Positions 5,573-26,588 of a DNA stretch of 41,614 bases are shown piece by piece. The stretch is taken from positions 1 through 41,614 of the forward strand of contig VXQO01000070.1 in assembly GCA_009838975.1 (NCBI GenBank), written 5' to 3'. The position numbers were made by a program, and so were the translations under genes. The notes under the pieces are model-generated. The model saw nothing but the letters and a program-made list of their open reading frames with translations. It was not told the DNA's origin and did no database searches. The stretch is from Gemmatimonadota bacterium. Lineage in GTDB: Bacteria > Gemmatimonadota > Gemmatimonadetes > Longimicrobiales > Gaopeijiaceae. Every line of letters starts with the position of its first letter. The stretch's first letter is position 1.

Positions 5573-5691
5573 CTGGTTCGGCGGCCTTTCCCGGAGTTTG
5601 AGTCGACCCGGTGCACGCTATTGCGCCACCCAGGGCGTTGTGGTGATGATATCGCGACCCCGATAACTCGGAGCGAATTCCAAATGCCGAA

Positions 5692-10937: not shown

Positions 10938-12006
10938 ATGTACCGGAACTGCATGTACTGCCAGAAGGACCTCGGCAGTAACGGGGTAATCGAGGAGTTT
11001 TCCGGTGGGCCGCCGCCTGGCCTTCGACGCGGCGAAGGGGAGGCTCTGGGTCGTGTGTTGCAGGTGCGAGCGCTGGAACCTCACGCCGCTGGAAGAGCGA
11101 TGGGAGGCGGTGGAGACGTGCGAGAAGCTGTTTCAGGGCACGCGTGTCCGCGTTTCGACTGAGAACATAGGGCTGGCGAAGCACCCTCAGGGTCTGCAAC
11201 TGGTGCGAATCGGCAGGCCGCTGAGGCCCGAGTTTGCGGCGTGGCGGTATGGGGACCAGTTCGGCCGGAGGAGGAGGCGCACCTTCGTACTGGGAGCCGC
11301 CACGACGGTGGCTGGAGTTGGCGGCCTGGTCCTGGGTGGTGCATTGGTGGGGTTGGGGGGTATCGGCCTCGTGGGGCCGGTCTTCCACTCGATCGAGGTC
11401 TGGACCAGGTTTCGTCCGTCGGTATTCTTCCGCCCACAGGACGGGCGACTGAGGTGGATGAATGGACACCGCATTCGCAGCGCTCGACTGGTGCCGGCCG
11501 ACGACGAATCCGGCTTCAGCGTTGAAGCGACGGCCCGGGGTGTGGTCTCCGCCGAGGAGCGGTTCGAGGAGGAGGATGGGGTGCGTGCTCTGAACGCGAT
11601 CATGCCGAGGGTCAATGCCGGAGGCGGTTCCCGAGGGACCGTCCAGGACGCTGTCGCGAGGATTGCCTTTGCGGGGCACGCCGACCGGTTTGTGCGGCGC
11701 CTTGCAAACGGGCGAGCATCTCCATACTCACCGGCAGGCGTACAGTTGAGTACGCTGACGAGGCCCACTCGCCTTGCGCTCGAGATGGCACTCCACGAAG
11801 AACAGGAACGTAGGGCGCTGGAAGGCGAGCTGTGGATGCTGGAGCGTGCATGGCGGGAGGCTGAGGAGATTGCTGCCATCTCGGACAATCTGTTGGTGCG
11901 CAAGAGTGCGGAGGCTTTTGTCCGGGAGCACCGGGACGAGCGCGAGGGCAAGGGTGGACTCCGGGCGGGTGAGAGTGGACCCCCGGAAACCGAGGAACGC
12001 GAGTGA
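10938..12006 (+). pseudogene. Zinc-ribbon membrane protein (paralog B) with a one-base frameshift
   Basis: This is the second copy of the protein at 8512-9588. The ATG at 10938 encodes YRNCMYCQKDLGSNGVIEEF, after which the reading frame shifts. Removing one T from the TTTT run at 10998-11001 restores EEFPVGRRLAFD, exactly matching paralog A, and the frame then stays open to 12006. A GTG at 11005 with GAGGAG seven bases upstream could restart translation and give a 333-residue protein that lacks the first CxxC but keeps CCRC, the membrane segment and the conserved C-terminal helix. It may be a decayed gene, a sequencing or assembly error, or a real slip site. The stop overlaps the start of the next gene (GTGA). 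Confidence 0.8.
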
Positions 12007-12731
12007 GCACACTTAGGGTCGAGTACCCCGGGCCGCAGCGGACGGAAGGAACCGCGGCGAAGCACCGGCGTCCGAAAGGCTCGGGCGGCGGTCGAGTGCG
12101 GCGGCTGCCACTGCGTCTGCTCCGTTGGGCCGCGCTCGCCGTCGTACTGGCCATCGTCCCCTTCTTCCTCCTGATTCGGGGCGGCGTGTTCGCCTACCAG
12201 CAATGGGGGTTGGGTCCATGGCCATCGCTGGTGGTGTCGGCTGCGGCGACGGCGCTTCTCCTGGTGCTCTACGCCTGGGCTCTGGGCCGCCGCCTCGGGG
12301 CGGGGAAGGGGCTCAAATGGTTGATGACCCGGGGCGCGGCGGCGCTGGCGGTCGCGTACGTGGCCTACTCGGTCGTGTATGTCGGAAGCGCCAACGTGAA
12401 GTCCGAGGAAGTGCGCGCCGAATATGCGGCGCTCCACCCACTGCTGCGCCTGGCCGCGAGCGCCGTCATCCTTGCGGACCAGGGCGCGGTCATCACGGAC
12501 GCGAGCCGCACTCCCGACTTCTACCGCCGGATGGGGCTCTCACCGAACGAGTCGTCACTGCATTTCAGACAGGATGACGGCTTTGTGCACGCGCTGGACC
12601 TGCGTACGGTCGGCCGTCCCGAGTGGCGGAACCGCGCCGTCGAGCTGACGTTCCGGGCGCTGGGCTTCAATACGCTGCGTCACGTGGGGACGGCCGACCA
12701 TCTGCATGTGTCGGTGAAGGCCCCGGGATAG
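12003..12731 (+). CDS. Small membrane protein with M15-like (Hedgehog/DD-peptidase fold) C-terminal domain
   Basis: A 242-residue protein of no family I can name. A basic N-terminus is followed by three hydrophobic segments (about 40-60, 75-95, 111-128). The last 90 residues contain SSLH187, HALD199 and D232-HLH235, resembling the SxH...D...HxH zinc ligands of M15 D-alanyl-D-alanine peptidases and related folds. If so it would be a membrane-tethered cell-wall peptidase; this is inference from spacing, and the gap between SLH and the Asp (12 residues) is longer than usual. It starts with GTG at 12003, overlapping the stop of the zinc-ribbon gene by four bases, so translation of the two is coupled. 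Confidence 0.65.
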   Translation: MSTLRVEYPGPQRTEGTAAKHRRPKGSGGGRVRRLPLRLLRWAALAVVLAIVPFFLLIRGGVFAYQQWGLGPWPSLVVSAAATALLLVLYAWALGRRLGAGKGLKWLMTRGAAALAVAYVAYSVVYVGSANVKSEEVRAEYAALHPLLRLAASAVILADQGAVITDASRTPDFYRRMGLSPNESSLHFRQDDGFVHALDLRTVGRPEWRNRAVELTFRALGFNTLRHVGTADHLHVSVKAPG

Positions 12732-12850
12732 GTCCATCAAGGCCATCAGCGACTGTCGACTCCAGGTCGCTCCAATCCTCGTCCGCAGCTTGCATCGCGC
12801 GGAAGGTCTCCTCCCAGGACAACTTGTCGCGTGGGACACCCCGCTCAGGA

Positions 12851-12893
12851 AATGACAACCGTACATTACATGATGACAAGTACAGTTTACGCC
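12851..12893. repeat. AT-rich intergenic element related to the one at 1685-1709
   Basis: It lies in the 192-base gap between two convergent genes. It holds two imperfect 21-base tandem units, each beginning ATGACAA (12852-12872 and 12873-12893). Read on the minus strand it contains CATGTAATGT and TTGTCATT separated by four bases. The same two blocks lie directly joined at 1690-1706 on the plus strand. In both places the element follows the end of a gene in its own orientation. The rest of this gap shows nothing I can support. Confidence 0.45.
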
Positions 12894-12923
12894 ACTGCGA
12901 CATCAATGAGATCCGCGCGCCCC

Positions 12924-13985
12924 TCAGTTGTGCTCGTGCCCCGTCTCGTAGTGGCGTGCCAGCGCGTCGCCGCCGAAGTCGTTCTCCAGGTCGCGCCACA
13001 CCGAGTGCACGTGGTTGGCGTTGCCCTGGGTGTTGTCGTACTCGATCAGGAACGAAGCCGCGTGGACGCGGTAGTAGTGGCCCTCTCCGTACTCGGTGGA
13101 ACCCGCCCAGGCGAAGTAGAGGTCGTCGGGGGAGATCTCGCTTTCGATCCGCGCCATCCACGCGTGTGCGGCAGCAGCGTCCATGTTCCACACGTACTCG
13201 CCGATGACGGCCATGAGCACGCTGCGCTGCGCGTCGGTGAGTTGTGACGCGGGGATTCCCTCGAAGCCGTCAAGCCGTGCCTCGCGGTCGTTGCCCGTGA
13301 TGATGTCGCGGGGCGCCTCGTCGGCGATCATCGCCATCTCGAGCTGTTCGGACGTGAGGCTCTGCACGAGGGAGCGCGCCAGATCCTCCTCGCGGCCGAG
13401 GGGGCGCCAGCCGGCCTTCGGGCCGGATGGGACGGTCGCCGGGTTCGACCCCATGAAGGCGGGCCCGGTGATGGTCAGCTCGTTCGACGGCGAGGAGAAG
13501 TTGAGCGACAGGTGGTGTCCCTCGAAGCGCCACGCCCAGGGCCCGCCCGCAGTGGGCGTTCCGAAGATGACGACGTAGTAGTCCTCCGGATCGCGCCGCT
13601 CGGGACGGCCTTCGATGACGCCGAGGATCCGTTCCAGTTCGATGATCGCGTTGGCCTTGTGGTATCCCTGGCTGCTCAGGGTCGCCTGCAGCATGGCGTG
13701 GGCCGCGGTGCGCTGCTCCAGCGTCATGTCCTTGAGCGGGAGGCCGTTGCGGGACACGGGCGTGAAGGCCCAGTTGAAGCGTTCCTCGTCGCCGAGGTCG
13801 TAGGTGGCCCGGTCGAGGGCGTCGCCTTCGAGGAGCGACAGGAAGGACGCCGCGGCCCCTGCAACGCCGTCCTCGCTGGCCGTGGGCGCGGGGGTGGCCT
13901 TCGGCATGGCTTCCCAGGCCACCACGGCCAGCGCCGCGACCCCAAAGCCCGCCATGAACAGTCTGGAATTCTTCGTCTGCTTCAT
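12924..13985 (-). CDS. DUF3500 family exported protein
   Basis: A 353-residue protein with an N-terminal signal or anchor (FMAGFGVAALAVVAW) followed by a DUF3500 domain over most of the length. Recognisable family features are the tract RFNWAFTPVSRNGLPLKDM, GYHKANAIIELE, and a region rich in histidine near the end (HYYRVHAASFLIEYDN, ANHVHSVWRDLENDFG). No reaction is established for the family that I can cite. The start ATG has GGAAG six bases upstream and lies 7 bases after the stop of the M19 dipeptidase gene, so the two form an operon and may act on related extracytoplasmic substrates. Confidence 0.88.
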   Translation of the reverse strand: MKQTKNSRLFMAGFGVAALAVVAWEAMPKATPAPTASEDGVAGAAASFLSLLEGDALDRATYDLGDEERFNWAFTPVSRNGLPLKDMTLEQRTAAHAMLQATLSSQGYHKANAIIELERILGVIEGRPERRDPEDYYVVIFGTPTAGGPWAWRFEGHHLSLNFSSPSNELTITGPAFMGSNPATVPSGPKAGWRPLGREEDLARSLVQSLTSEQLEMAMIADEAPRDIITGNDREARLDGFEGIPASQLTDAQRSVLMAVIGEYVWNMDAAAAHAWMARIESEISPDDLYFAWAGSTEYGEGHYYRVHAASFLIEYDNTQGNANHVHSVWRDLENDFGGDALARHYETGHEHN

Positions 13986-13992
13986 TCTCTTC

Positions 13993-15318
13993 CTACCCTT
14001 CCTCTGCTTGAATCTTCGCGGCGACTTCCTGCACCTCGTCGAGAACGCGAAGCAGGTTGCCGCTCCAGAGCATGCCGATCTCTTCTTCCGTGTAGCCGCG
14101 CCGGACGAGCTCCAGCGTGACGTTGAACGTCTCCGATGCGTCGTCCCAGCCCGCCACGCCGCCGCCGCCGTCGAAGTCGGAGCTGATGCCGACGTGCTCG
14201 AGGCCGATCAGGTTGACCATGTAGTCGATCTGGTCGACGAAATCGGCCACGCTGACGTCGGGGGGGATGTCCATGTCGGCCGCCCGCTCCGCCGCCGTGG
14301 CCCGGACCTGGGACATCTGCTCGAAGTAGGCGTCGCGTTCGTCGGGGGGAAGGGCGAACATTCCGCCCCGTCCGAGTATCTCGACGCCCATTTCGGCTGC
14401 GACCTCCGCCTCGATCGCGTCCATGGCCTCGCGGTGAGCCGCGTTCCGGGTCGTGTTGACGAAGGAGCGGAGCGCGACGGTCTGCACCACGCCGCCGTTG
14501 GCAGCCACCGCGTGCAGCTGCTCGTCGTCGAGGTTGCGGCTCACGTTGCTCAGCCCGCGGGCGGACGAGTGCGACGCCATCACGGGCGCCCGCGTCATTT
14601 CCAGCGTCTGCATGATCGAGGGCTTCGACGGGTGGGAGATGTCGATCATGATCCCGAACCGGTTCATCTCCTCGATCGCCTTGCGGCCCATCTCGCTCAG
14701 GCCGCCGTGCAGGAAGTCGCCGTCGTTCTCGCCGGAGTGCGCGTCGGACAGCTGGTTCGGGCCGGTGTGCGCGAGCGACATGTAGCGCGCGCCCCGCTCG
14801 TGGAACTCCTCGACGCGCGAGATGTCGGTGCCCAGCGGATACGCGTTCTCGACCCCGATCATCGCGACGAGCCTGCCTGAGGCCGCGACCTGGCGGACAT
14901 CGTCGGAGGTCAGCGCCAGCCCGATCCGGTCGGGCGCGTACTCGTTCACCATGCGGTGGATGGCGTCGAACTTGTCGACCGCGTTCTCGTAGGCCGTCGC
15001 GTAGCCTTCGTCGTTGAGCAGGCCCTGCGAGGTGTAGACGACGAACCAGCCGACGTCCAGCCCGCCCGCTTCCATCTTGGGCAGCGTCACCTGGGTGGGC
15101 AGGTCAGACGTGTAGTTGCGCTCGGCGGTGAAGTTCGCCGTGCTGATGTCGATGTGCGTGTCGAGCGTGATGACCCGGTCGTGGATCTCGCGGGCGCGTT
15201 GGGCCATCGCCTCTTCGGATTCCTCGGCGGGGTCGTCGGCGGGGGTGCAGGCGGCGCCGCTGACCGCGAGTGCGAGCGAGAGCGCGAGGGAGCAAGTGGC
15301 AATGCGGGGAATGGTCAT
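13993..15318 (-). CDS. M19 (membrane/renal-type) dipeptidase, lipoprotein
   Basis: A 441-residue zinc dipeptidase. The ATG at 15318 is chosen because GGAG lies eight bases upstream and it begins a signal peptide ending in SGAAC (Cys24), giving a lipoprotein; an earlier in-frame ATG at 15450 would bury this signal. M19 features are present: THID (His55, Asp57), the glutamate in GVENAYPL, DISHPS, SHSSARGLSNVSRN, and GISSDFDGGGG. Family enzymes cleave dipeptides, often including D-residues, with a two-zinc centre. Its location at the cell surface next to peptidase and transporter genes fits peptide scavenging. It is followed 7 bases later by the DUF3500 gene. Confidence 0.92.
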   Translation of the reverse strand: MTIPRIATCSLALSLALAVSGAACTPADDPAEESEEAMAQRAREIHDRVITLDTHIDISTANFTAERNYTSDLPTQVTLPKMEAGGLDVGWFVVYTSQGLLNDEGYATAYENAVDKFDAIHRMVNEYAPDRIGLALTSDDVRQVAASGRLVAMIGVENAYPLGTDISRVEEFHERGARYMSLAHTGPNQLSDAHSGENDGDFLHGGLSEMGRKAIEEMNRFGIMIDISHPSKPSIMQTLEMTRAPVMASHSSARGLSNVSRNLDDEQLHAVAANGGVVQTVALRSFVNTTRNAAHREAMDAIEAEVAAEMGVEILGRGGMFALPPDERDAYFEQMSQVRATAAERAADMDIPPDVSVADFVDQIDYMVNLIGLEHVGISSDFDGGGGVAGWDDASETFNVTLELVRRGYTEEEIGMLWSGNLLRVLDEVQEVAAKIQAEEG

Positions 15319-15392
15319 GTGTGGTGCTCCGGTCTCCGGTTGCAGGGCGGTACCGGGTTCAAGATAGGGTTTGCGGAGGCGGACGGCATCCC

Positions 15393-15404
15393 GGCAGGCC
15401 TGCC
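15393..15404. promoter_or_regulatory. Twelve-base palindrome in a divergent gap
   Basis: GGCAGGCCTGCC is a perfect palindrome in the 149-base gap between the divergent dipeptidase and cupin genes, where both promoters must lie. It could be an operator. In GC-rich DNA such a palindrome can arise by chance, so support is weak. Confidence 0.2.
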
Positions 15405-15467
15405 CGGCATCTACCTTGGTGGACACGGTTTTGCCAAACCTGCCCGTCACTCGACCCGGAGCCCGCC

Positions 15468-15791
15468 ATGGGAATCATCGACTCCACCCGCCAGCGCCGC
15501 TTCTCGCCCGAGAAGATGCAGAAGCTCAACCTCTTCGAGACCGGTCAGATGTTCTGCGACGTCTATTGCCTGGGTCCCGGGCAGGCCCAGCACGTACACA
15601 CGCATGCGGGCGCAACGAAGTTCTATTATGTGATCGAGGGCGAAGGCCGCTTCACGGTGGGCGACCGGCGCGAGCGCCTGGGTCCCGGTGCGGTGGCGTG
15701 GTCAGAGCCGGACGAACCGCACGGCGTGGCCAACGAGTCCGAGGGCGACCTGGTCCTGCTGGTGGCAATGGCGCCGAACCCGAACCGGTAG
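15468..15791 (+). CDS. Small single-domain cupin
   Basis: A 107-residue cytoplasmic protein with one cupin fold. The metal-site motif is seen as HVHTH (His42, His44, His46) and a later His85 in EPHGV, with the conserved glycine turn EGEGRFTVG between them. Small cupins bind a metal and range from isomerases to dioxygenases and sensors, so the reaction is unknown. The ATG at 15468 has GGAG eight bases upstream and starts just before the conserved fold. It is followed 9 bases later by the ICMT-like methyltransferase gene and is probably cotranscribed with it. Confidence 0.85.
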   Translation: MGIIDSTRQRRFSPEKMQKLNLFETGQMFCDVYCLGPGQAQHVHTHAGATKFYYVIEGEGRFTVGDRRERLGPGAVAWSEPDEPHGVANESEGDLVLLVAMAPNPNR

Positions 15792-15800
15792 GGGCCGCGC

Positions 15801-16349
15801 ATGTCCAACATTCTCTTCGGCGTCGCCGTCCTGATCCTCCTGGCGGCGCTGGCGGGTGCAGTCTGGTCGGTGGCGGTCCCGGACAGGCGTCTGTGGCCCC
15901 CGCCGAGCCGTGGTTCCTGGCCGTACCTGCTGAACTGGCTCGGCTTCTACGTCGTGTGCGGGATCAGCCTCCTGCTGCTTCTCATGTACTGGAACTCCTG
16001 GATCTTTCCGAGCCCGCTCCGCTTGGTCCTCGGTGTGCCCCTGGCCGTGCTCGGCGGCTCGCTGGCACTCTGGGCAACGTTGGCCGCGGGCTGGAAGAAC
16101 ACGAGCGGGCTGAAGGACGGGTTCGTGTCCTCGGGCCCCTACAGGTTCTCGCGGAACCCGCAGTACGTGGGCCATATCGCATTGTTCATCGGCGTGAGCG
16201 TGATCGCGAACTCACTGCTCCTGTGGGTCACGCACCTGTTGATGGCGGTGTTGTTCGTGCTGGCGCCGTTGGCGGAGGAGCCCTGGCTGGAGGAGCAGTA
16301 CGGCGACGCCTACCGCGAATATCGGAAGAGGGTGCGGCGGTTCCTGTGA
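15801..16349 (+). CDS. ICMT/PEMT-like membrane methyltransferase
   Basis: A 182-residue integral membrane protein of the isoprenylcysteine carboxyl methyltransferase superfamily. It has about five hydrophobic helices and the family's C-terminal S-adenosylmethionine signature: GPYRFSRNPQYVGHI (about 112-126), the pair EEP and a final EEQYGDAYREYRKRVRRFL. Bacterial members methylate lipids or small molecules of unknown identity in most cases. The gene is 9 bases downstream of the cupin gene. It converges with the NCS2 permease gene across an 84-base gap holding inverted repeats. Confidence 0.87.
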   Translation: MSNILFGVAVLILLAALAGAVWSVAVPDRRLWPPPSRGSWPYLLNWLGFYVVCGISLLLLLMYWNSWIFPSPLRLVLGVPLAVLGGSLALWATLAAGWKNTSGLKDGFVSSGPYRFSRNPQYVGHIALFIGVSVIANSLLLWVTHLLMAVLFVLAPLAEEPWLEEQYGDAYREYRKRVRRFL

Positions 16350-16355
16350 GGGTTC

Positions 16356-16433
16356 AGCAGTCCGCGGAGCACCGCGGATCAGCGCGGATGCATCGCCTCC
16401 CGAACGCAGCGGGGACCTGTCCCACGGACTGCT
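16356..16433. terminator. Nested inverted repeats between convergent genes
   Basis: The 84-base gap between the methyltransferase and permease stops is bounded by a perfect 9-bp inverted repeat, AGCAGTCCG (16356-16364) and CGGACTGCT (16425-16433). Inside it is a 7-bp hairpin TCCGCGG-AGCA-CCGCGGA (16361-16378), which competes with the outer left arm. The position fits a bidirectional terminator. No T tract follows. Confidence 0.5.
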
Positions 16434-18209
16434 CTAATCCCACCCCACCTGACCCGCGCGCCCCACGGCATCCACCCGGATCGTCAGGATGTCGATGTCG
16501 TGATACTGCTGGTGGCGAATCGACGACGCGTAGTGCCGAAGGAGCCGCAGCGGCGTCTCGGTCTCGACGGGGACGCTGGCCGTTGCCTCGCTGAGCATCG
16601 CCAGCTGATCCTCGATGTTGGTCGCATCCGTGGTGGCGATGAACTCCAGATCGGCGGCGTTGCCGTCGCTGCGTGCAATCAGCAGCAGGCGCCGCTCCCC
16701 GTCCGCCGTCTCTTCCGCGTCGCCACTCGTCAGGATCTGCATCGTTTCTTCGCCCACGGCGCGCAGCCGCGTTTCCATCTCCTCGCCCCAGCGCTTGCGG
16801 GCGGCGAACCTGGTCAGGAAGGCGTCCACCTCCGGCCACGTCGCGGCGGTCAGGCGGGTCTTGAGGCGTGATCTGCCCCCGCCTCCGATCTCCCCGAACA
16901 CCGTCAGCAGGATCACGGTCAGGCCGCCGACGGTCATGCCGTTCCCGAGCAGTTCACCCCATGCGCCCTGCAGGTACTCCGGGTAGATCCAGCCGAACTG
17001 GAAGGCGATGCCGAGCCAGAAGGCGACGCCGACCACCAGACTCTTCCGGTAGTCCAGTCCTTCCGAAAGCAGGATCTTCATGCCGAAGACGAAGATCAGG
17101 GCGACGAGGATCACGTAGTACGCCGCCACCACCGGCCCCGGTATCGCAACGATCAGCGTGACGAACTTGGGCAGGAACGCGAGCACGATGAAGACGGCCC
17201 CGACGCAGATCCCGATCCGGCGCGCGGCGACCCCGGTCAGTTCGGCGACCGCGATGCTCATGCCGTACGTCGTGTTCGGGACGGTGCCGGCCAGGCCGGA
17301 GAGGAGATTGCCCACGCCGTCGGCGCCGATCGCCCCCTGAATCGAGCGGAAGTCGATCGCGCGAGGCTTGCGCCAGGAGACCCGCTGGATCGCGATGGCG
17401 TCTCCGAGGGTGTCCATCGCGCCGACCAGGGTCACCATGATGAACGAGGGCAGAAGGGCCCAGAACTCGGGCCGGAAAGAGAGGTCGATCCCGGGATAGG
17501 CCAGATCCGGCAGGCCGATCCACGCGGCTTCGGCGACGGTGGTCATGTCGTAGATCCCGAAGCCGAGGGCGGCGACGAGGCACCCGGCTACGATACCCAG
17601 GGCCGGCGCCCACAGCCGCAACACACCCGAAAAACGCAGTGGGACGAGGAGGGTGACGAGCAGCGTTACGCCCGCCGTGACCGGCCCGGCCAATGGTGAG
17701 GCGTCCGCGGGTACCTCGGCCAGCTTGCGCAGGATGAGCGGCGTGAGCGTAATCGGAATGAGGATCAGCACGGTGCCCGCCACCGTCGGTGTAAACACCT
17801 TGCGCAGGAGCGCCATGCGTGCCGCCAGGACGAACTGGACCAGCGCGGCGGCGATGATCAGAGTGGCGAGCATGCCCGGCCCGCCCCGCTCGATGGCGGT
17901 CACGCTCACGGCGAGAAACGCGCTCGTGCTTCCCATCACGAGGATGTAGCCGGCGCCGATCCGTCCCAGCTTGCGGGCCTGAATCGCAGTGGTGAGGCCA
18001 CTGATCACGAGCGCGGCAAACACTGCCCACGAGAGGTATTCGTCACTGCCTCCCGCGAGGGTGATCATGATCATCGGGGTTAGCACGATGCTCGCGATGC
18101 AGAGCATGGCATACTGCAACCCGAGTCCGACGGTTATGGGCAGCGGGGGCCGATCGTCGGGCTGGTAGCGGACGTCCTGGCGCGTCTCGGCGGGGCCTGA
18201 GCCGCTCAT
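16434..18209 (-). CDS. NCS2/SLC23-type nucleobase permease with a fused C-terminal cytoplasmic domain
   Basis: A 591-residue inner-membrane transporter. Residues 25-440 form the nucleobase:cation symporter-2 core, with about 14 hydrophobic spans and the family signature PNTTYGMSIAVAELTGVAAR (311-330). Family members import xanthine, uric acid or uracil with protons or sodium. Residues 450-591 are an extra soluble domain not found in ordinary permeases of about 450 residues. It has an EEMETRLRAVGEETMQIL helix, a beta pair (RRLLLIARSD and DLEFIATTD) and a final LRLLRHYASSIRHQQYHDID. This order recalls an RsbW-type ATPase fold without its Asn box (inference). The ATG overlaps the decarboxylase stop by four bases (ATGA), so it ends a coupled operon. 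Confidence 0.88.
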   Translation of the reverse strand: MSGSGPAETRQDVRYQPDDRPPLPITVGLGLQYAMLCIASIVLTPMIMITLAGGSDEYLSWAVFAALVISGLTTAIQARKLGRIGAGYILVMGSTSAFLAVSVTAIERGGPGMLATLIIAAALVQFVLAARMALLRKVFTPTVAGTVLILIPITLTPLILRKLAEVPADASPLAGPVTAGVTLLVTLLVPLRFSGVLRLWAPALGIVAGCLVAALGFGIYDMTTVAEAAWIGLPDLAYPGIDLSFRPEFWALLPSFIMVTLVGAMDTLGDAIAIQRVSWRKPRAIDFRSIQGAIGADGVGNLLSGLAGTVPNTTYGMSIAVAELTGVAARRIGICVGAVFIVLAFLPKFVTLIVAIPGPVVAAYYVILVALIFVFGMKILLSEGLDYRKSLVVGVAFWLGIAFQFGWIYPEYLQGAWGELLGNGMTVGGLTVILLTVFGEIGGGGRSRLKTRLTAATWPEVDAFLTRFAARKRWGEEMETRLRAVGEETMQILTSGDAEETADGERRLLLIARSDGNAADLEFIATTDATNIEDQLAMLSEATASVPVETETPLRLLRHYASSIRHQQYHDIDILTIRVDAVGRAGQVGWD

Positions 18210-19729
18210 CCGCCTCGGCCCGCCGCTGCCACCGTCGGGCGCCACCGTTCGGGGTGGGCCTCGAGCCGCTCGAGCGCCTCGCGCAGCACCGCGAGCGCCA
18301 GATCGATCGTGTCGAGATGCGTGCGAAACGCCAGCGCCGCCATCCGCAGCATGAACTTTCCCTTTACCGTCGTGGACGACATGAATACCCGGCCGTCGCG
18401 GTGCGTTTCTTCGACGAGCGCCTGGTTGAACGCATTCGCGCTGCCCGACTCGGGCACCCACCTGAAGGTCACCACGGTGAGATCCGGCTCCGGCCCCAGT
18501 TCGAAGCCGAGCCTTTCGACCTCGCGGTGGAAGTACTTCGTGAGTTCCAGCTTCTCGCGCAGGCACGCCCGGAACGGCTCCTCACCGTGCAGGAGCAGCG
18601 GCAGCCATACGCGCAGTGCGCGGAAGTGCTTGGTCAGCTCCGGCGATACCGCAGCGGGCGAGCGGCCTCCGCCCTCCGACTCCACCGTGTCCTGCAGGTA
18701 GGCGGCGTAGTAGGCGTGCGCGTCCTGGAGCGCATCGCGGTTCCGGACGAGGACGGCGCCCGTGCCGTAGGGCAGGAACATGCTCTTGTGCGGGTCGAGA
18801 ACCAGCGAGTCGGCGCGTTCCAGTCCGGCGAGCTGCGGACGAAACTCGTCGAGCAGGGCGAAGAAGCCCCCGTACGCGGCGTCGACGTGGAACCAGAGAC
18901 CCTCCCGCCGGCAAATGTCGGCGACCCGGTCGAGCGGGTCGATGGCACCCGTGTCCGCGGTGCCGGCCGAGCCGAGAACGAGCCAGGGCCGCAGCCCCTG
19001 CGCCCGATCCGCGGCGACGAGTTCGGACAGCGACCGGGGGCACATGCGGAAGCCCTCGTCGACGGGGACGTCGCGGGGCACGGTTTCCCCCATGCCGGCC
19101 ACCCGGATAGCCTTGTGGAGGCACTGATGAATGTGGGGGGTGGCGTACACGACGGCGCTATCGAAGTCGCGGGCCTTGAGCCCGGCCGCTTCGCGTGCCG
19201 CGACGATCGCGGTCAGACTCGCAATCGAGCCGCCCGACGCGAGGTTGCCGTCGGCGGTAGGGGGGAAGCCGACGACCCGGGCCATCCAGTCGAGGATCAT
19301 GTCCTCCATTTCGACCGATCCCGGGCCCACGAAGCGGACGCCGGCGTATTCGTTCGTGACGGCGGCGAGGTAGTCGGCGAGCGACGAGGCGTAGAGCCCG
19401 CCACCCGGGATGTATGCCAGGTGTCCCGGATGGGACGGAAGGAGGCCGGGCCGCACGACGGATTCGTCGAAGCGGGCGATGAGCTGCTCGATGGGATGGG
19501 GTCCGTCGCCCGTCCCGAGCCTTCGGATCTCCTCGACCGCCGACTTGTCGTGGCTGTAGGCGGGCTTGTTCGCGATGTCGCTCAGGAGGTGTTGTGCGAA
19601 CCCGTGCGCCGCGCGCATGAGGCGGTTGCGCTCACGTTCATCGGGGTCGAGCGCCCGTGCCCGCTCCTCCAGTTCGAGAATCCGGGCCCGGGCCCGGCCT
19701 GAGTTGCGATGCATGGAGCTATCGATCAC
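18206..19729 (-). CDS. Group II pyridoxal-phosphate-dependent decarboxylase
   Basis: A 507-residue enzyme of the aromatic amino acid/glutamate decarboxylase family. The PLP lysine is Lys315 in DPHKSMFLPYG, and the aspartate that pairs with the cofactor is in FHVDAAYGG. The family's substrate-loop region GLLPSHPGHLAYIPGGG is near the N-terminus. The length is usual. Substrates in the family include aromatic amino acids, glutamate, aspartate and histidine, and I cannot choose between them. It starts with GTG at 19729, overlapping the LanC-like stop (GTGA); an ATG five codons in is another possible start. Its stop overlaps the permease start. Tight coupling on both sides suggests that its product or substrate is shared with the LanC-like protein or the permease. 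Confidence 0.92.
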   Translation of the reverse strand: MIDSSMHRNSGRARARILELEERARALDPDERERNRLMRAAHGFAQHLLSDIANKPAYSHDKSAVEEIRRLGTGDGPHPIEQLIARFDESVVRPGLLPSHPGHLAYIPGGGLYASSLADYLAAVTNEYAGVRFVGPGSVEMEDMILDWMARVVGFPPTADGNLASGGSIASLTAIVAAREAAGLKARDFDSAVVYATPHIHQCLHKAIRVAGMGETVPRDVPVDEGFRMCPRSLSELVAADRAQGLRPWLVLGSAGTADTGAIDPLDRVADICRREGLWFHVDAAYGGFFALLDEFRPQLAGLERADSLVLDPHKSMFLPYGTGAVLVRNRDALQDAHAYYAAYLQDTVESEGGGRSPAAVSPELTKHFRALRVWLPLLLHGEEPFRACLREKLELTKYFHREVERLGFELGPEPDLTVVTFRWVPESGSANAFNQALVEETHRDGRVFMSSTTVKGKFMLRMAALAFRTHLDTIDLALAVLREALERLEAHPERWRPTVAAAGRGG

Positions 19730-21117
19730 CAGGGATCATCGGGCAGTATCACGCTCGGCCCCACGCCCCGCTCCTCTATCGCGTCCATGTGGAGAAAGTA
19801 CTTGCCGACCCCCGCCGCGCCCTGCATGTGGCCGGTCTGCGCGACGATCAGGTCGGGCTGTACGCGGTGCTCGGCCTGCGTCCACTTGCGGCCCGCGCCG
19901 GCGGGGGTGTCGACGCTCGCGGCGCGGCCCAGCATGTCGGCGTTGAGCCGCTCCACGAAAGCCCTGTACTCGTCGTTGCCGGTGGTCCGGTGCAGCGTCA
20001 GGAAGTGCTCGGCTACGCCGGCGGTGCCGCAGCACTGGCTGATGTTCTCCCAGAACCCGGGGGTGCGGGTCTCGGGGATGCCGGTTGCAATGACCCCGCG
20101 GGCGCCGCGGGCGACCCACGCGTGCCACTCGGCGTCGCCGGTGATCTCGCCGAGCAGGTGGAAGAGGCGGTTGGTGCCGACGGGGCCGTGGCACCACGAC
20201 AAGTAGTAGAGGTCTTCGCCGCCGGGACGGGAGTGGAAGAGGCGGTAGCCATCGCCCTGGGTGACCTGCGAGGTGAGGTAGCGGGCGCCGGCCAGCGCGG
20301 CGTCGAGGAAGTCACGCTCCCCGGTCGCCCGGTGCAGGGTGGCGAGGAAGTATGCGATGCCGGCGGTGCCGTGTGAGAAGTTGGGCATTTCGCGCGCGTA
20401 GCCGGGCCACATGTCCCAGCGAAGGCCGTTCGAGGTCTCGATGGCGCGTTCGAGGAGCCTCCTTCCCGCTCCCTCGGCCGCTTCCAGTGCGCCACGGTGA
20501 CCGAGCGTGCGGTCGAGTTGGATGAGGGCGAGCCCGGTGCCGGCGGTGCCGCTGATGATGTCGTTGGATTCGACGGCGTCGGTGCCCGATCCCTGGGGCC
20601 AAGCCACACCCGCGCCGACCGTGCGGGCGCGGTCGACGAGGAGCTGGGTGGCGAGCCCGGCGTGGGACCGGTGCATGTCGAGATTGGTCGCGCGCCAGGT
20701 CTCGGTCAGAACGAATGCAATGCCGGCGAGGCCGGTGTAGAGGCCGGCGCCGGGGACGTCCGAGAGGGTGGCGGCGAGGTGCGCGGCGCCTTCCACCGCG
20801 GCGTCCAGGTACTGCTGGTCGCCCGTGGCGTAGTGGAGCTCGAGGGCGAAGGGGAGGACGCCGGGGCCGTGTGTATAGAGTGTGTATCCGGTGGATTCGG
20901 GGTCCGTCGGGTCGGCCGGCCAGGTCGCGCCGCGGCCGGTGCTGATGCGCGACGCGTCGACCCAGTTCCAGGCCTCGAGCGCGACCTGGAGGTGCGGGCG
21001 GTCGTGTTCGGCCAGCGCGCGCAGCAGGGCGGGTGAGAGCGCGAAGGCGGCGGCGGCGCCTGCCGAACCGGCGAGGAACGAGCGCCGCGTGAGGACGTGG
21101 TCGCACAGTCGGCACAT
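19726..21117 (-). CDS. Tat-exported LanC-like protein with a CCG zinc motif
   Basis: A 463-residue protein with seven GxxG-type repeats (such as HGPGVLPF, YTGLAGIAF, SGTAGTGLA, SHGTAGIAY, GAAGVGKY), the mark of the alpha/alpha barrel of lanthionine synthetase C. Zinc ligands match NisC as Cys309 (WCHG), Cys362 and position 363, which is Cys instead of His. His249 in SHGTAG and Asp186 in NDIISG match other active-site residues of the family. The N-terminus has CRLC followed by a twin-arginine signal, TRRSFLA (10-16), and a hydrophobic stretch, so it is probably exported folded. LanC enzymes add thiols to dehydroamino acids; no precursor peptide or dehydratase is seen here. It starts one base after the amidohydrolase stop, with GGAGG nine bases upstream. 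Confidence 0.85.
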   Translation of the reverse strand: MCRLCDHVLTRRSFLAGSAGAAAAFALSPALLRALAEHDRPHLQVALEAWNWVDASRISTGRGATWPADPTDPESTGYTLYTHGPGVLPFALELHYATGDQQYLDAAVEGAAHLAATLSDVPGAGLYTGLAGIAFVLTETWRATNLDMHRSHAGLATQLLVDRARTVGAGVAWPQGSGTDAVESNDIISGTAGTGLALIQLDRTLGHRGALEAAEGAGRRLLERAIETSNGLRWDMWPGYAREMPNFSHGTAGIAYFLATLHRATGERDFLDAALAGARYLTSQVTQGDGYRLFHSRPGGEDLYYLSWCHGPVGTNRLFHLLGEITGDAEWHAWVARGARGVIATGIPETRTPGFWENISQCCGTAGVAEHFLTLHRTTGNDEYRAFVERLNADMLGRAASVDTPAGAGRKWTQAEHRVQPDLIVAQTGHMQGAAGVGKYFLHMDAIEERGVGPSVILPDDPW

Positions 21118-21118
21118 G

Positions 21119-24100
21119 TCAGTTGCCTCCCACTCCGGGCAGCGCGCCCGGCTCGTCGTCCCACCACCACATCGGCCCGACCTCGCGGTCGCCCGGGTAT
21201 TGCTCGGCGAGCGTCTCGGCGTCGAAGAGGCGCCCGTTCATCATCACCATCGCGATCCGGTTGGTGTTGCGGATGTCGTCGAGCGGGTTGGCGTCCAGGA
21301 TGACCAGGTCGGCCAGTTTGCCGGTCTCGATCGTGCCGAGGTCCTCGTCGAGCCCGATCGCCTCGGCGCCCAGGATCGTGGCCATGCGCAGCGCGTCGAG
21401 TTCGCCGATCCCGCCCGCGGCCATGGCCCACAGCTCCCAGTGGTACCCCAGCCCCTGGAGCTGGCCGTGGCTGCCGACGCCCGCGCGGCCCCCCGCCTCG
21501 ACCAGGTCCTTCACGAAGACCGCGTGGTCGGCGAACACGTGCTCCTCGTCGCGGAACCACTGGGCACGGCGGCGCGTCCCCGAGTCGATCACCGAGTGGG
21601 GGACGAAGCGGCGGAGCTTCTCGTCGTCGTGCGGGTTCTCGCGGCTGAAGAAGTAGTTCTCGGCCCAGGGCCCGCCGTAGGAGACGAGCAGGGTGGGGCT
21701 GTAGGCGCGTTTGGTGGCCACGAAAATCCGGACATAGTCGTCGTAGACCGGGTATATCGGGATCGAGTGCTCCAGGCCCGGATACCCGTCGATGGTCTCG
21801 TTCAGGTTCTGGCGGAGGTTCAGCGACCCCTCGGTCGTGGGCATCAGCCCCAGTTCGCGGGCCGCCATGATGATCCACTGGCGCTGCTGGCGATTGCCCG
21901 CCACGTACATCTTGATCGTCTTCGTGTCGAAGTAGTTCGCGTACTTGGACATGATGTCGCGCGCCTCGTCCTCGGAGTCGATCATGTGCTGCCAGAAGAC
22001 GCCGGGGCCGGTCGAGTAGACGCGCGGACCGACCAGCTCGCCGGTGCGGACCAGATCGGCGTAGCTGAGCACGTCGGTGGTGCCGGTCTGCGGGTCGCGC
22101 GTGGTGGTGACGCCGTACGCGAGGTTCGCGAGGTAGGGCCAGACGTCGGCGCGGTGCAGGTTACGCGCGGGCCGCATGTGGGCGTGCGTGTCCACGAAGC
22201 CGGGCACGATGGTCTTGCCGGAGACGTCGATAACACGGGCGTCGGAGGGTACGTCGAGGGAGCCCGAAGGGCCGACCGCGGCAATGCGGTTGTGGCGCAC
22301 CAGGATATCGCCCCGCTCGATCGTCCCCGCGCCGGCCACGGTCACCACGCGCGCGCCGCTCAGCAGCGCGGTCCCGCGCGGAATGTCACGCCCGGCCTGA
22401 ATGTCGATCCACACCTCGACGGGCGTGTAGCCATCGTCGTCCTCGTCGGGGTCGTCGCCCTCCTCTCCCTCCTCCTCTTCTTCTTCGGCCTCGGCGGCCT
22501 CCTCGGCTTCCTGCGCCTCCTCGAATGCCTCGGCCGCATCCAGGTCGTAGGTGAAGAACGCGCGGCCCAGCGACCAGTGCACGGCGCGCCCGCTCGCGGC
22601 CCACACGGGGAACTCACCGCCCATGTCCGTAAGGCGGCGGGCGGGCATGGCGGCGCGCGAGGGATTGCCGACGTTGATGAGCGGGGCATCGCCGCCGACC
22701 ATCGGCACGGTGGCGGTGTAGATCTGCCCCTCGATCAGCGCCATGACCTGGTCGCCCTGCGGGGCCATGCGCAGCACGGAGGGGGTGAGCGCGTTCTGGG
22801 AACCCGGTGGGGTCGCGCCGCGGATGCGCACGTGTTCGCGCTCGTCAGTGCCGTCCCAGCGGATCGAAGCCAGCATGTCCTGACCGCTCTGGAAATGGAT
22901 GCGGTCGCCCGAGCCGGCCGTGAAGTGGGGCCCCCGGCGTCCGTCGACCGGCGCGATCAGCGTGGCGGCACCCGGCCCGTCGCCGTCGGCTACCCAGACG
23001 ATCTCGCCGGGCTGGGGGGCGCCCGACCCGAATCCGCCCGCCGACTCCTGGAAGTCACGCGCGAAGCTGCGCAGCGCCACGACGCGGTCGCCCCCGGGAG
23101 ACCACGCCGGAGTGATATAGACCGCACCGCGCTCGGTCAGCCGAACCGGCGAATCGCCGCCGGCCGCGCGGACCTTGTGGAGGTGGCCCGCTTCTCCGTC
23201 CCAGGTGGCGTAGGCGATCCAGTCGGCGTCCGGGGACCAGGCGGGGTAGTGCTCGGAGTGCTCATCGGCGGTGAGGCGCCGGGGTTCGGTGCCGTCGGCG
23301 TTGGCGACCCAGAGGCGGTCCAGCGCCGTGAACGCGATCCGGGAGCCGTCGGGCGAGGGCACGGCGTCGCGGATCTGGCGCACGGTGAAGGTGGGGGTGT
23401 CCTCGATCGGGTAGTCGAATTCGACGAGCGGCCCGAGTTCGAGGTCGTACTGGACACGGAACGGGATCTGCTCCGCACCGCCGTCGACGACGTCCAGCTT
23501 CCATATCCTGCCGCCGTAGCTGGCCACAAGATGGCGCGAGTCGGGTGTGAACGACATGCCGGGCAGCACGTCGAGGGTGCCGCGCGACTCCTGGTCGTCG
23601 TGCTGCACCGGGTATGCCAGCCAGCGCTCGGCGCCCGACTCGAGGTCGCGGATGATCAGCCCCGTGCGGGCGTCGTGCCGGGTGCCGTAGACGAGCCAGC
23701 GCCCGTCAGGCGACGGGGTGGGGCGGATGCCCGAGCCGTACCGCGACGTGCGCGTGTAGGTCTCGCCGGTCTCGCGGTCGTAGACGGCGAGCTGGTACTG
23801 CGGGAACTGCGCGTTGTAGGTCCAGTCACCGGTCCGCCGCGCATGCCAGATGTAGCGGCCGGTCGGATCGAACGCGGCCCCGAGGGTCTTGAGGTTGTCG
23901 GGCTCGTCGATCAGCTGGACGCCGGATCCGCCGTCCACGTGGTGCAGCCACAGCTTCGGCAGGCCGCCGCCGCGAAATCCCCCCTTCGACGACACGACGT
24001 ACTCCCCGTCGGGCGCCCAGTCCGGCGACTCGGTGCGATTGGCCCCGCCCGTGGTGACCTGCGTGGTGTCGGACCCGTCCAGCGACATGATCCAGACGTT

Positions 24101-24424
24101 CTGCCCCCCGCTCCGATCCGAAGTGAACACGATCCGCGTCCCGTCGGGCGAAAAACGCGGCTGCGCGTCGAAGGCCATCCCCGACGTCAGCTGCGTCGCG
24201 TCCCCCCCGGTGATCGGCACCGTGAAGAGATCGCCGAGGTGGTCGAAGACGATCGTCTGCCCGTCGGGACTCACGTCCAGCGAGATCCACGACCCGACGG
24301 TCATGTCGATCGCGAGGGTGCGGTCGGGTTGGAGGGGGAGGTCGGCGTTCCCGCCGCTGCCGGAGTCCTGGGCGAGGAGGCCGGTGGGGACAAGGAGTGC
24401 GGCGGCGAGGAGAGGGGTCCGCAT
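21119..24424 (-). CDS. Exported TolB-like beta-propeller fused to an amidohydrolase
   Basis: A 1101-residue secreted or periplasmic protein. A signal peptide (MRTPLLAAALLVPTGLLAQ) is followed by a WD40-like/TolB propeller (about 40-600) with repeated blade motifs such as FSPDGTRIVFTSDRSG and WAPDGEYVV. A strongly acidic linker (about 640-670) leads to a metal-dependent amidohydrolase domain with the metal motif THAH (His747, His749) after GKTIVPGFVD. The C-terminus ends with a typical NPLDDIRNTNRI segment. Family members hydrolyse cyclic amides or peptides; the substrate is unknown. It is the first gene of a four-gene operon and diverges from the DUF2784 gene across 119 bases that should hold its promoter. 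Confidence 0.9.
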   Translation of the reverse strand: MRTPLLAAALLVPTGLLAQDSGSGGNADLPLQPDRTLAIDMTVGSWISLDVSPDGQTIVFDHLGDLFTVPITGGDATQLTSGMAFDAQPRFSPDGTRIVFTSDRSGGQNVWIMSLDGSDTTQVTTGGANRTESPDWAPDGEYVVSSKGGFRGGGLPKLWLHHVDGGSGVQLIDEPDNLKTLGAAFDPTGRYIWHARRTGDWTYNAQFPQYQLAVYDRETGETYTRTSRYGSGIRPTPSPDGRWLVYGTRHDARTGLIIRDLESGAERWLAYPVQHDDQESRGTLDVLPGMSFTPDSRHLVASYGGRIWKLDVVDGGAEQIPFRVQYDLELGPLVEFDYPIEDTPTFTVRQIRDAVPSPDGSRIAFTALDRLWVANADGTEPRRLTADEHSEHYPAWSPDADWIAYATWDGEAGHLHKVRAAGGDSPVRLTERGAVYITPAWSPGGDRVVALRSFARDFQESAGGFGSGAPQPGEIVWVADGDGPGAATLIAPVDGRRGPHFTAGSGDRIHFQSGQDMLASIRWDGTDEREHVRIRGATPPGSQNALTPSVLRMAPQGDQVMALIEGQIYTATVPMVGGDAPLINVGNPSRAAMPARRLTDMGGEFPVWAASGRAVHWSLGRAFFTYDLDAAEAFEEAQEAEEAAEAEEEEEEGEEGDDPDEDDDGYTPVEVWIDIQAGRDIPRGTALLSGARVVTVAGAGTIERGDILVRHNRIAAVGPSGSLDVPSDARVIDVSGKTIVPGFVDTHAHMRPARNLHRADVWPYLANLAYGVTTTRDPQTGTTDVLSYADLVRTGELVGPRVYSTGPGVFWQHMIDSEDEARDIMSKYANYFDTKTIKMYVAGNRQQRQWIIMAARELGLMPTTEGSLNLRQNLNETIDGYPGLEHSIPIYPVYDDYVRIFVATKRAYSPTLLVSYGGPWAENYFFSRENPHDDEKLRRFVPHSVIDSGTRRRAQWFRDEEHVFADHAVFVKDLVEAGGRAGVGSHGQLQGLGYHWELWAMAAGGIGELDALRMATILGAEAIGLDEDLGTIETGKLADLVILDANPLDDIRNTNRIAMVMMNGRLFDAETLAEQYPGDREVGPMWWWDDEPGALPGVGGN

Positions 24425-24543
24425 GGTCGTGCTGCCTTCCTGATTTCGCGTGGCTCGGCTGTACTCGCGGCGGAGGCGCGTTCCGGCGTAATATGCGGGC
24501 GTGAGTCGTTGCGCGGCTACCTTTCGCAGGTGCTGATACCCCG

Positions 24544-24948
24544 ATGAGCGATCTGGCCCTCTACCGCCTCCAAGACATTCTCTTCGTCGTCCTCCACACG
24601 GCGCTGATCGGGTTCAACGTGCTCGGCTGGGCCTGGCGGCGAACCCGCAGGTTCCACCTTGTGACCATCGGCGCGACCCTGCTTTCCTGGTTCGGGCTGG
24701 GCGCGGTCTACGGGTGGGGGTACTGTCCGCTCACGGACTGGCACTGGCGGATCAAGCTGATGCTGGGAGAGACCGATCTGCCCGGGTCGTGGATCAAGTA
24801 CTACCTGGACCGGATCACGGGGTTGGACTGGAGCCCGATGGTGGTCGACTGGCTCGTGGTGGGTACGGCGCTCGGGGCTCTCGGGCTTTCGGTGGTGCTC
24901 AACCTCAGGGATCGTCGTCGGTCAGGCGCGTCAGCCGCAGCGTCCTGA
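24544..24948 (+). CDS. DUF2784 family small membrane protein
   Basis: A 134-residue integral membrane protein with three or four hydrophobic segments. The family signature is the short loop GWGYCPLTDWHWRIK near residue 60, with a conserved CPLT. The function of the family is not known to me. It is divergent from the amidohydrolase operon. AGGTG lies about 12 bases upstream of the ATG, which is rather far. The S10 peptidase gene follows after 110 bases. Confidence 0.8.
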   Translation: MSDLALYRLQDILFVVLHTALIGFNVLGWAWRRTRRFHLVTIGATLLSWFGLGAVYGWGYCPLTDWHWRIKLMLGETDLPGSWIKYYLDRITGLDWSPMVVDWLVVGTALGALGLSVVLNLRDRRRSGASAAAS

Positions 24949-25058: not shown

Positions 25059-26588
25059 GTGACGAAGACTCGGTTCGCGTTCGTTTGGGCCCTCGTGCTG
25101 CTTGCCGGCATCCCCGCCCACGCCCAGGAGGCTGATTCCGCCGCGGATCCGGCCCGCTGGGAAACCAGCCACTCGATCGTGATCGAGGGCGAGACGGTCG
25201 AATACGACGCGGTCGTCGCGGGCACCACCCTGACCAGCGATAGCGGCGATCCTGCTGCCGAGCTCTGGTATACGGCCTACTTCCGCACCAACGGAGCTCC
25301 GTCGCGGCAGCGGCCGGTCGTGTTCTCCTACAACGGGGGACCGGGGTCGGCGTCCTTCTGGCTGCACATGGGGATCATGGGGCCGCGGCGGGTGGTGACG
25401 CCGGACGTGGGCCCGCAGGGAGCGCCCCCCTATCCGCTCGAGGACAACGCGTACACCATCCTCGACATCGCCGACATCGTGATGGTCGACCCGATCGGAA
25501 CCGGGTTCAGCCACCTCCTCGGCGATACGCCCGGTTCGGACTACTGGGGCATCGACGAGGACGCGCGCTCGCTCACCCAGTTCATCCGGCGCTTCCTGAG
25601 CGAGTACGACCGGTGGAACGCGCCCCGCTACCTCCTCGGCGAAAGCTACGGGACGACGCGCTCGGCCGTGCTGGCGAGCCACCTGCAAAGGGCCAACATC
25701 GACCTGAACGGCATCGTGCTGGTGTCGTCGGTGCTGCAGTTCAACACGATCCAGTTCGCACCGGGAGACGACCTGCCCTACATCGTCAACCTGCCGTCGT
25801 ACGCGATCACGGCGCGCTACCTGGACGCGCTGCCGGGCGAGAACCCGCCCGACCTGGAAGGCTTCATGGCCGAGGTGGAGGAATGGTCGCTCACCGAATA
25901 CGCCACCGCGTTGCTGGCGGGCGCGACGCTCGACCCGGACACCCGCGCCCGCGTGATCGATCAAATGCACCGCTACACCGGGCTCAGCCACGACTACATC
26001 GACAAGTCGGACCTGCGCGTCACCGCTCCGGCCTTCGAGGCGGAGCTGCTGCGCGACCAGGGGCGGATCGTCGGGCGTCTCGACGCACGCTTCACTGGCC
26101 CGGCGGGCGACCTGCTCGGGGGACGGCCCTCGCACGATCCGCAGTCCACCGCGATCAGTTCGGCGTACACCTCGGCCTTCAACAGCTATGTGCGCGACGA
26201 ACTCGGCTACGACGGTGACCGGGAGTACGTGCCCAGCGGCGGCACCCGCAACTGGAACTGGGGCCGGCAGGGCGGTGGCGGCGCCTTCGTCCGCGGCGGC
26301 GGCACGCCCAACGTCGCTCCGGATCTGGCCAACGCGATGAAGCGCAATCCGCGGCTCGAAGTCCTTCTCATCAACGGGATCTACGACTTGGCGACGCCCT
26401 ATTTCGCGGCCGTCTGGACCATGGATCGCATGGGTCTGCCGCCCGAGTTGCGCGACAACATCGAGCGGTCCGACTTCGCTGCCGGACACATGATGTACGT
26501 GGAGCAGTCGCTGCTGCCGCAGTGGAAGGAGACACTGGACCGCTTCATCCTCCGGACTTCGGGCCGGTCCGTTCCCGTTTCAGACTAG
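25059..26588 (+). CDS. S10 family serine carboxypeptidase, exported
   Basis: A 509-residue protein with a signal peptide (MTKTRFAFVWALVLLAGIPAHAQ). The S10 motifs are present: SYNGGPGSASFW (oxyanion region, 90-101), the nucleophile Ser196 in GESYGTT, Asp443 in NGIYDLATP and His477 in AGHMMY. Family enzymes remove C-terminal amino acids from peptides, often at low pH. The start is a GTG with GAGGAG about eight bases upstream. It probably works with the other exported peptidases of the window in protein breakdown. The EamA gene follows after 78 bases. Confidence 0.93.
   Translation: MTKTRFAFVWALVLLAGIPAHAQEADSAADPARWETSHSIVIEGETVEYDAVVAGTTLTSDSGDPAAELWYTAYFRTNGAPSRQRPVVFSYNGGPGSASFWLHMGIMGPRRVVTPDVGPQGAPPYPLEDNAYTILDIADIVMVDPIGTGFSHLLGDTPGSDYWGIDEDARSLTQFIRRFLSEYDRWNAPRYLLGESYGTTRSAVLASHLQRANIDLNGIVLVSSVLQFNTIQFAPGDDLPYIVNLPSYAITARYLDALPGENPPDLEGFMAEVEEWSLTEYATALLAGATLDPDTRARVIDQMHRYTGLSHDYIDKSDLRVTAPAFEAELLRDQGRIVGRLDARFTGPAGDLLGGRPSHDPQSTAISSAYTSAFNSYVRDELGYDGDREYVPSGGTRNWNWGRQGGGGAFVRGGGTPNVAPDLANAMKRNPRLEVLLINGIYDLATPYFAAVWTMDRMGLPPELRDNIERSDFAAGHMMYVEQSLLPQWKETLDRFILRTSGRSVPVSD

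Follow-up and report, generated by a model that had tools for sequence, protein, structure and literature searches.

What does a LanC-like protein do when its gene stands among hydrolase, decarboxylase and permease genes? The question is raised by a stretch of 41,614 nucleotides from a Gemmatimonadota bacterium (contig VXQO01000070.1, assembly GCA_009838975.1), which is called the window here at its full length and is part of a 4.5-Mb genome of a marine bacterium (contig C149). Its nearest named records are Gemmatimonadota metagenome-assembled genomes, Longimicrobiales assemblies and Candidatus Palauibacter. Members of Palauibacterales are found in sponges, marine sediment and saline soils, and the main text of the paper that describes them mentions no peptidases, amidohydrolases or lanthipeptides (PMC10469786). 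Four genes of the window encode, in this order, a PD40 beta-propeller amidohydrolase, a LanC-like protein with a predicted twin-arginine translocation (Tat) signal, a pyridoxal phosphate (PLP)-dependent decarboxylase and an NCS2-family permease. The initial annotation read them as one possible route, in which an amino-acid- or thiol-containing small molecule is modified outside the membrane, decarboxylated and transported. The exported variant of this known enzyme family is real and conserved, and the case is now stronger for the LanC-like family, and weaker for a four-gene pathway, than in that annotation.

The LanC-like protein and its catalytic site

The LanC-like protein (19726..21117, minus strand) has 463 residues and matches PF05147 with 107 bits against a cut-off of 23.2 (E 8e-31), which places it in the LanC/LanC-like superfamily; by sequence it is nearest to the cyclase domains of the LanL and LanM synthetases (class II/IV) and of CuvL. 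The top PDB matches of its AlphaFold2 model (predicted TM-score 0.80; mean predicted local distance difference test, pLDDT, 72.6) are all of LanC, LanCL or LanL type, with Z scores of 27-31 over ~343-375 residues, and include CuvL, Arabidopsis GCR2, MadC, LanCL2, NisC and LanCL1. Glycosidases and epimerases, which share this toroid, reach Z ~20-21, and the LanC relatives stand ~7-10 Z units above them.

The catalytic residues were compared in an alignment of 46 homologs, 39 of them of the exported type. D186, H249, C309 and H310 are present in all 39 exported sequences and C362-C363 in all but two copies, one of which lies at a contig end while the other is frameshifted; the Cys309-His310-Gly and Cys362-Cys363-Gly motifs hardly vary among the exported sequences. 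The three zinc-ligand positions C309, C362 and C363 (the CCG form) and the proton-donor His H249 are thereby all represented, and zinc is probably bound through this Cys-Cys-Cys set. In LanCL1, the zinc-bound thiolate attacks dehydrobutyrine (Dhb), and the enolate is protonated by His219 and stabilized by His277, which is beside the first zinc Cys (PMC9934072). Position 277 is occupied by Tyr in stand-alone bacterial LanC and by Lys, Asn or His in LanM (PMC9934072), and all exported members have His there, after the first zinc Cys, in a WCHG motif. At the level of aligned residues, the comparison shows that the whole LanC/LanCL catalytic site is kept.

The N-terminus of the protein (~residues 1-36, MCRLCDHVLTRRSFLAGSAGAAAAFALSPALLRALA; 21010..21117, minus strand) has the features of a Tat substrate, with a (S/T)RRxFL-type n-region, here TRRSFL, and a moderately hydrophobic h-region (TRRSFLAGSAGAAAAFALSP), and TatC is encoded in the window genome, so export is predicted. 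An Arg-Arg pair stands within a signal-like N-terminus in every member of the exported family, and R11 and R12 are invariant in alignment A1. Related Actinomycetota and Mesobacillus proteins, with 30-35% identity, show no signal at their N-termini, and the tree separates them from the exported Gemmatimonadota proteins, which group as a single clade. These data place the LanC-like protein in a monophyletic, stand-alone family across Gemmatimonadota whose members bear a putative Tat signal, and the modification step that the initial annotation placed outside the membrane agrees with the predicted signal and the TatC gene.

The protein resembles eukaryotic LanCL1 and LanCL2, which add glutathione to dehydroalanine (Dha) and Dhb, in its stand-alone alpha/alpha toroid (Z 28), proton-donor His, WCHG motif and lack of a dehydratase partner; it differs from these cytosolic enzymes, which have CHG, in the twin-arginine signal, in Cys as the third zinc ligand (CCG) and in an operon with a hydrolase and a PLP decarboxylase. 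The LanC domains of class IV/II synthetases (CuvL, 8car; LanL; LanM) are closest in sequence and structure, and QCCG is common to CuvL, but the window protein has no kinase, lyase or dehydratase domain and no precursor peptide, and is predicted to be exported. With the class I cyclase NisC it shares a stand-alone cyclase fold and the Asp, His and Cys positions, whereas it has His for Tyr285, CCG for CHG, no LanB/LanT/LanA context and a predicted export signal. The "lanthionine synthetase LanC family proteins" of Actinomycetota and Bacillota (such as L102, L103 and L105) are likewise stand-alone and have the CCG motif, with 30-35% identity over ~90% of the length; unlike the window protein, no signal peptide was seen in them, and no hydrolase or decarboxylase gene adjoins theirs in the annotated plasmid regions examined. 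In the literature searched, no account of an exported LanC came up.

The operon, its conservation and its partial loss

The four genes are all on the minus strand, as had been noted. The amidohydrolase gene comes first (21119..24424, 1101 residues) and is followed, after a 1-base gap (21118), by the LanC gene, which overlaps by 4 bases (19726-19729) with the decarboxylase gene (18206..19729), and this one overlaps by 4 bases (18206-18209) with the permease gene (16434..18209). These tight junctions had been taken as a sign of joint production. The spacing is confirmed, but the LanC/decarboxylase overlap says less about coupling than it seems to, because the LanC gene ends in a Trp codon and a stop (TGGTGA), so that a GTGA start is always on offer; the GTGA overlap is present in all relatives and was rejected as proof of coupling. 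The decarboxylase may also start at ATG 19714, which is 15 bases further in, instead of at GTG 19729. Before the operon, a divergent intergenic region of 119 bases (24425..24543), the presumed promoter region, leads to a DUF2784 gene on the plus strand, which starts at 24544. Consensus scans for promoters and terminators gave no match, and no sigma-70-like site was found in these 119 bases.

Conservation was followed in 23 genomes of the genus, of which 14 carry the LanC gene and 9 do not; an additional record (L021) provides a 15th LanC locus. LanC orthologs are 70-95% identical among the 14 carriers. The LanC and decarboxylase genes adjoin in 14 of the 15 loci, and nine loci (the window, L019, L020, L022, L023, L025, L030, L031 and L032) have an uninterrupted run of all four genes, while the permease is missing, truncated or displaced in five (L021, L026, L027, L028 and L029). 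An amidohydrolase ortholog is present in 12 of the 14 carriers and in none of the 9 non-carriers (Fisher p 7e-5, not corrected for kinship). The operon arrangement is more than chance, because LanC recurs with the decarboxylase in other LanC-bearing genomes of the group. The neighbourhood and gene order on which the initial annotation was to be judged thus hold across the genus, and the pairing of LanC with a PLP decarboxylase is found also in another family of the phylum. The amidohydrolase-LanC and LanC-decarboxylase pairs are neither confined to this genome nor scattered in its relatives, while the permease is in part found apart.

The locus in which LanC and decarboxylase do not adjoin, L021, has ~7 kb between them. 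The island in this locus (11451-16945) encodes a KGGVGRT-type ATPase with a TPR-like tail, a predicted P-loop NTPase that ends in pentapeptide-like repeats and a helix-turn-helix/zinc-finger regulator, and looks like a defence-type island. Giant proteins with Ig/cadherin-like repeats flank the LanC-decarboxylase pair on both sides in L026 (2794-6984 and 13364-16975, >1,200 residues) and L029 (1973-5881 and 13347-15599).

Six LanC-minus genomes still have adjoining decarboxylase and permease genes at the syntenic position, without the amidohydrolase. In five of the six, the place of amidohydrolase-LanC is occupied by c19 (HATPase/STAS-like) or c20 (a small membrane protein), and the sixth locus ends upstream in the gene calls. 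A LanC C-terminal remnant of 21 residues (YLDAVEQRGEGPRVVFPDDPW-stop) lies directly upstream of the decarboxylase in L039, and one of 15 residues is fused in frame to c19 in L037. Because of these in-frame remnants, LanC was formerly present and then lost in both genomes, and a gain of LanC by the window lineage was rejected for at least these two. Since the amidohydrolase is absent along with LanC while the decarboxylase and permease stay, the former two make one unit and the latter two are independent of it. The coherent unit is the amidohydrolase with the exported LanC, placed before an older decarboxylase-permease pair. The single linear pathway of four steps was abandoned on these grounds: the pair persists without LanC, the permease is missing, truncated or displaced in five of the 15 loci, and the decarboxylases that adjoin LanC in the other family belong to a different subgroup.

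The HATPase and STAS-like protein that replaces amidohydrolase-LanC is encoded at 7879-8994 of L037, 8187-9101 of L039 and 7169-8089 of L035. At 4427-4888 of L034 (Candidatus Palauibacter poriticola), not beside the decarboxylase, an ADP-ribosylglycohydrolase-like fragment carries a fused LanC C-terminal fragment of 26 residues with 81% identity.

All four operon proteins match their profiles above Pfam cut-offs. The amidohydrolase (PF07676/PF01979), which by inspection has an N-terminal secretion signal, is a member of a large paralogous PD40 family with nine strong matches in the window genome, and its active site keeps HAH, Lys and the beta6 His. The decarboxylase is a divergent group II member of PF00282 (DPHKSMFLPYGTG; 195 bits vs 27; E 2e-57), with the PLP-binding Lys in DPHK (DPHKSMF) and without a signal peptide; none of the named equivalogs (L-2,4-diaminobutyrate, aspartate, tyrosine) was reached, the best NCBIfam score being 177 bits against a cut-off of 900. 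The permease (PF00860; 157 bits vs 27; E 8e-46) has a C-terminal extension of ~150 residues and is one of ~10 paralogs in the genome. It reached none of the curated subfamilies (PbuX, 196 vs 414 bits; NCS2 superfamily, 181 vs 292), and nucleobase specificity was rejected for that reason. The N-terminal PD40 beta-propeller of the amidohydrolase and the C-terminal domain of the permease are absent from the initial annotation. NCS2 permeases with such a ~150-residue C-terminal domain are expanded to ~ten copies per genome in the genus. Outside the tight operon, a M19 membrane dipeptidase (13993..15318, minus strand) and a divergent S10 serine carboxypeptidase-like protein (25059..26588, plus strand) are encoded by conserved syntenic neighbours.

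Neighbours of the family across the phylum

A PF05147 protein, in many cases of the exported type, is encoded in 72 of 395 sampled genomes of the phylum. Neighbours were identified by Pfam/NCBIfam, loci were collapsed by hand into 20 contexts, and the neighbour background was small (308 random genes). Directly upstream in L077, L085, L087 and L094 are a Thr ammonia-lyase-like PLP enzyme and an Amidohydro_3 protein, which by inspection resembles N-acyl-D-amino-acid deacylases, and the L091 contig has the amidohydrolase only; the PLP neighbour in family f4 is TdcB-like. L100 has a diaminopropionate (Dap) ammonia-lyase and a M20 dipeptidase upstream of LanC. Xaa-Pro-dipeptidase-like amidohydrolases are beside LanC in L090 and, divergent, in L082, and M19 dipeptidases in L084 and, convergent, in L086; other neighbours are a penicillin amidase (L099) and a M14 carboxypeptidase (L043). 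The LanC gene of L099 (~4517-5900), downstream of the penicillin amidase, is apparently frameshifted into two open reading frames (ORFs).

An amidohydrolase-superfamily gene lies within one position of LanC in 6 of the 20 contexts against 9 of 268 random genes (p 4e-5; 4e-3 at 8% background), and a PF00282 gene in 2-3 of the 20 against 2 of 268 (p 0.01-0.0004). Enrichment of ammonia-lyases beside LanC was not significant in the 20 contexts against the random-gene background (p 0.15). The PF00282 decarboxylases of L089 and L097, directly downstream of LanC, group with paralogs of the window genome and not with the window decarboxylase; because they are of a different subgroup, their pairing with LanC arose separately. 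Hydrolase neighbours in place of antibiotic genes suggest an undescribed role outside the inner membrane.

Proposed role and alternative explanations

The reading preferred here, to which we give somewhat less than an even chance, is that an exported zinc enzyme catalyzes the addition of thiols to dehydroamino-acid or thioether residues of peptides, or their elimination from such residues, together with an amide or peptide hydrolase and then a cytoplasmic PLP enzyme. The LanC-like enzyme would fold and load its metal in the cytoplasm before Tat export. Outside the inner membrane it would add a thiol to Dha or Dhb, catalyze the reversal, or act at thioether residues of small peptides, in a chemistry modelled on LanCL1, which is intermolecular with glutathione. 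The partner amidohydrolase or dipeptidase could release the modified amino acid from a peptide or acyl linkage, and the product may be used by a cytoplasmic PLP enzyme, which would be the decarboxylase here and a Thr or Dap ammonia-lyase elsewhere. LanC chemistry leaves the alpha-carbon of the former Ser/Thr in the D configuration, and several of the partners, the N-acyl-D-amino-acid-deacylase-like proteins and the M19 dipeptidases, are of kinds for which acceptance of D- or dehydro-residues is known. For the putative activity, scavenging or detoxification outside the inner membrane, and not antibiotic synthesis, is the most likely role; nothing relevant on lanthionine catabolism turned up in the literature searched. 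The BshC gene of bacillithiol synthesis is present in the window genome, so bacillithiol is a possible cellular thiol; glutathione ligase gave a weak match only, and ergothioneine was dismissed since no EgtD-family methyltransferase was found in the genome. We know of no thiol outside the inner membrane.

Several observations weigh against the proposed role. The pLDDT is <50 at several active-site loops of the model, the canonical beta5 His and beta8 Asp are absent from the amidohydrolase and its PD40 paralogs, which have TTEG and SHG instead, and about half of the 20 collapsed contexts have no informative neighbour. The partner hydrolases come from several families and so do not point to one substrate, and the decarboxylase and permease persist in six genomes that have no LanC. 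The replacement of the beta5 His and beta8 Asp is a subgroup-wide change in the PD40-amidohydrolases of the genus.

The alternative that survives best is that amidohydrolase-LanC and decarboxylase-permease are unrelated and co-transcribed by position only, with a LanC chemistry independent of its neighbours. This would explain the pairs found without LanC, the deletion, truncation or displacement of the permease, and the LanC neighbours that differ among lineages, but it is somewhat less likely than the preferred reading, given that LanC-decarboxylase adjacency persists in 14 of 15 loci despite surrounding insertions, arose a second time in another family, where the decarboxylase is of a different subgroup, and is accompanied across the phylum by over-represented amidohydrolase-type neighbours. 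An exported LanCL-like enzyme could also cap reactive dehydroamino-acid peptides, or electrophiles of other kinds, with a low-molecular-weight thiol for defence, with no catabolic purpose. Its WCHG active site, of the His277 type found in eukaryotic LanCLs (PMC9934072), and the BshC gene are in keeping with this; low-molecular-weight thiols are mainly cytoplasmic, and the hydrolase partners indicate substrate processing over capping, which makes pure defence rather improbable.

Lanthipeptide-type maturation, in which the protein would cyclize a peptide from an unrecognised dehydratase, could draw on the complete set of cyclase residues and on the kinship with class II/IV cyclase domains. The initial annotation had seen no dehydratase near the operon, and its absence extends to the window genome, in which no LanM-type dehydratase (PF13575, DUF4135) was found; it is absent from 13 of the 14 LanC carriers, the exception being G016 of the same genus. 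PF05147 has a single match in the window genome, which excludes LanL and LanKC, since both carry a LanC domain and no second one is present. The LanB dehydratase (PF04738) had no match in the 23 genomes, the control genomes being likewise without match, and no precursor-like ORF stood out within the operon. A lanthipeptide cluster was rejected for lack of a LanM dehydratase and of a second LanC domain, and with known cyclases acting in the cytoplasm before export, against a Tat signal here, such maturation is very improbable. Recruitment of the toroid as a GH127-, GH76- or epimerase-like hydrolase or isomerase of sugars is hardly credible and was rejected, for although the fold is shared, with a weak, sub-threshold Pfam match to GH127 and sugar enzymes among the structural matches, these score well below the LanC relatives, PF05147 is far over its cut-off, the LanC-specific zinc Cys/Cys-Cys triad and proton-donor His are invariant, and the neighbours are peptide and amide enzymes, not sugar enzymes.

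For the phylum as a whole, we tentatively propose that the Tat-exported LanC-like family may catalyze thia-Michael additions or their reversal outside the inner membrane, within a route of peptide catabolism or detoxification in which amidohydrolases or dipeptidases and PLP enzymes would be its partners. The known roles of LanC proteins are cytoplasmic lanthipeptide cyclization and, in eukaryotes, glutathione addition to dehydroamino acids in proteins. If true, the proposal would describe a bacterial, extracytoplasmic use of LanC outside the ribosomally synthesized and post-translationally modified peptides. The exported family is conserved, its active site is intact and hydrolase partners recur beside it, which makes this role directly testable; thioether chemistry would then have a place in the scavenging of peptides or in the defence of the envelope.

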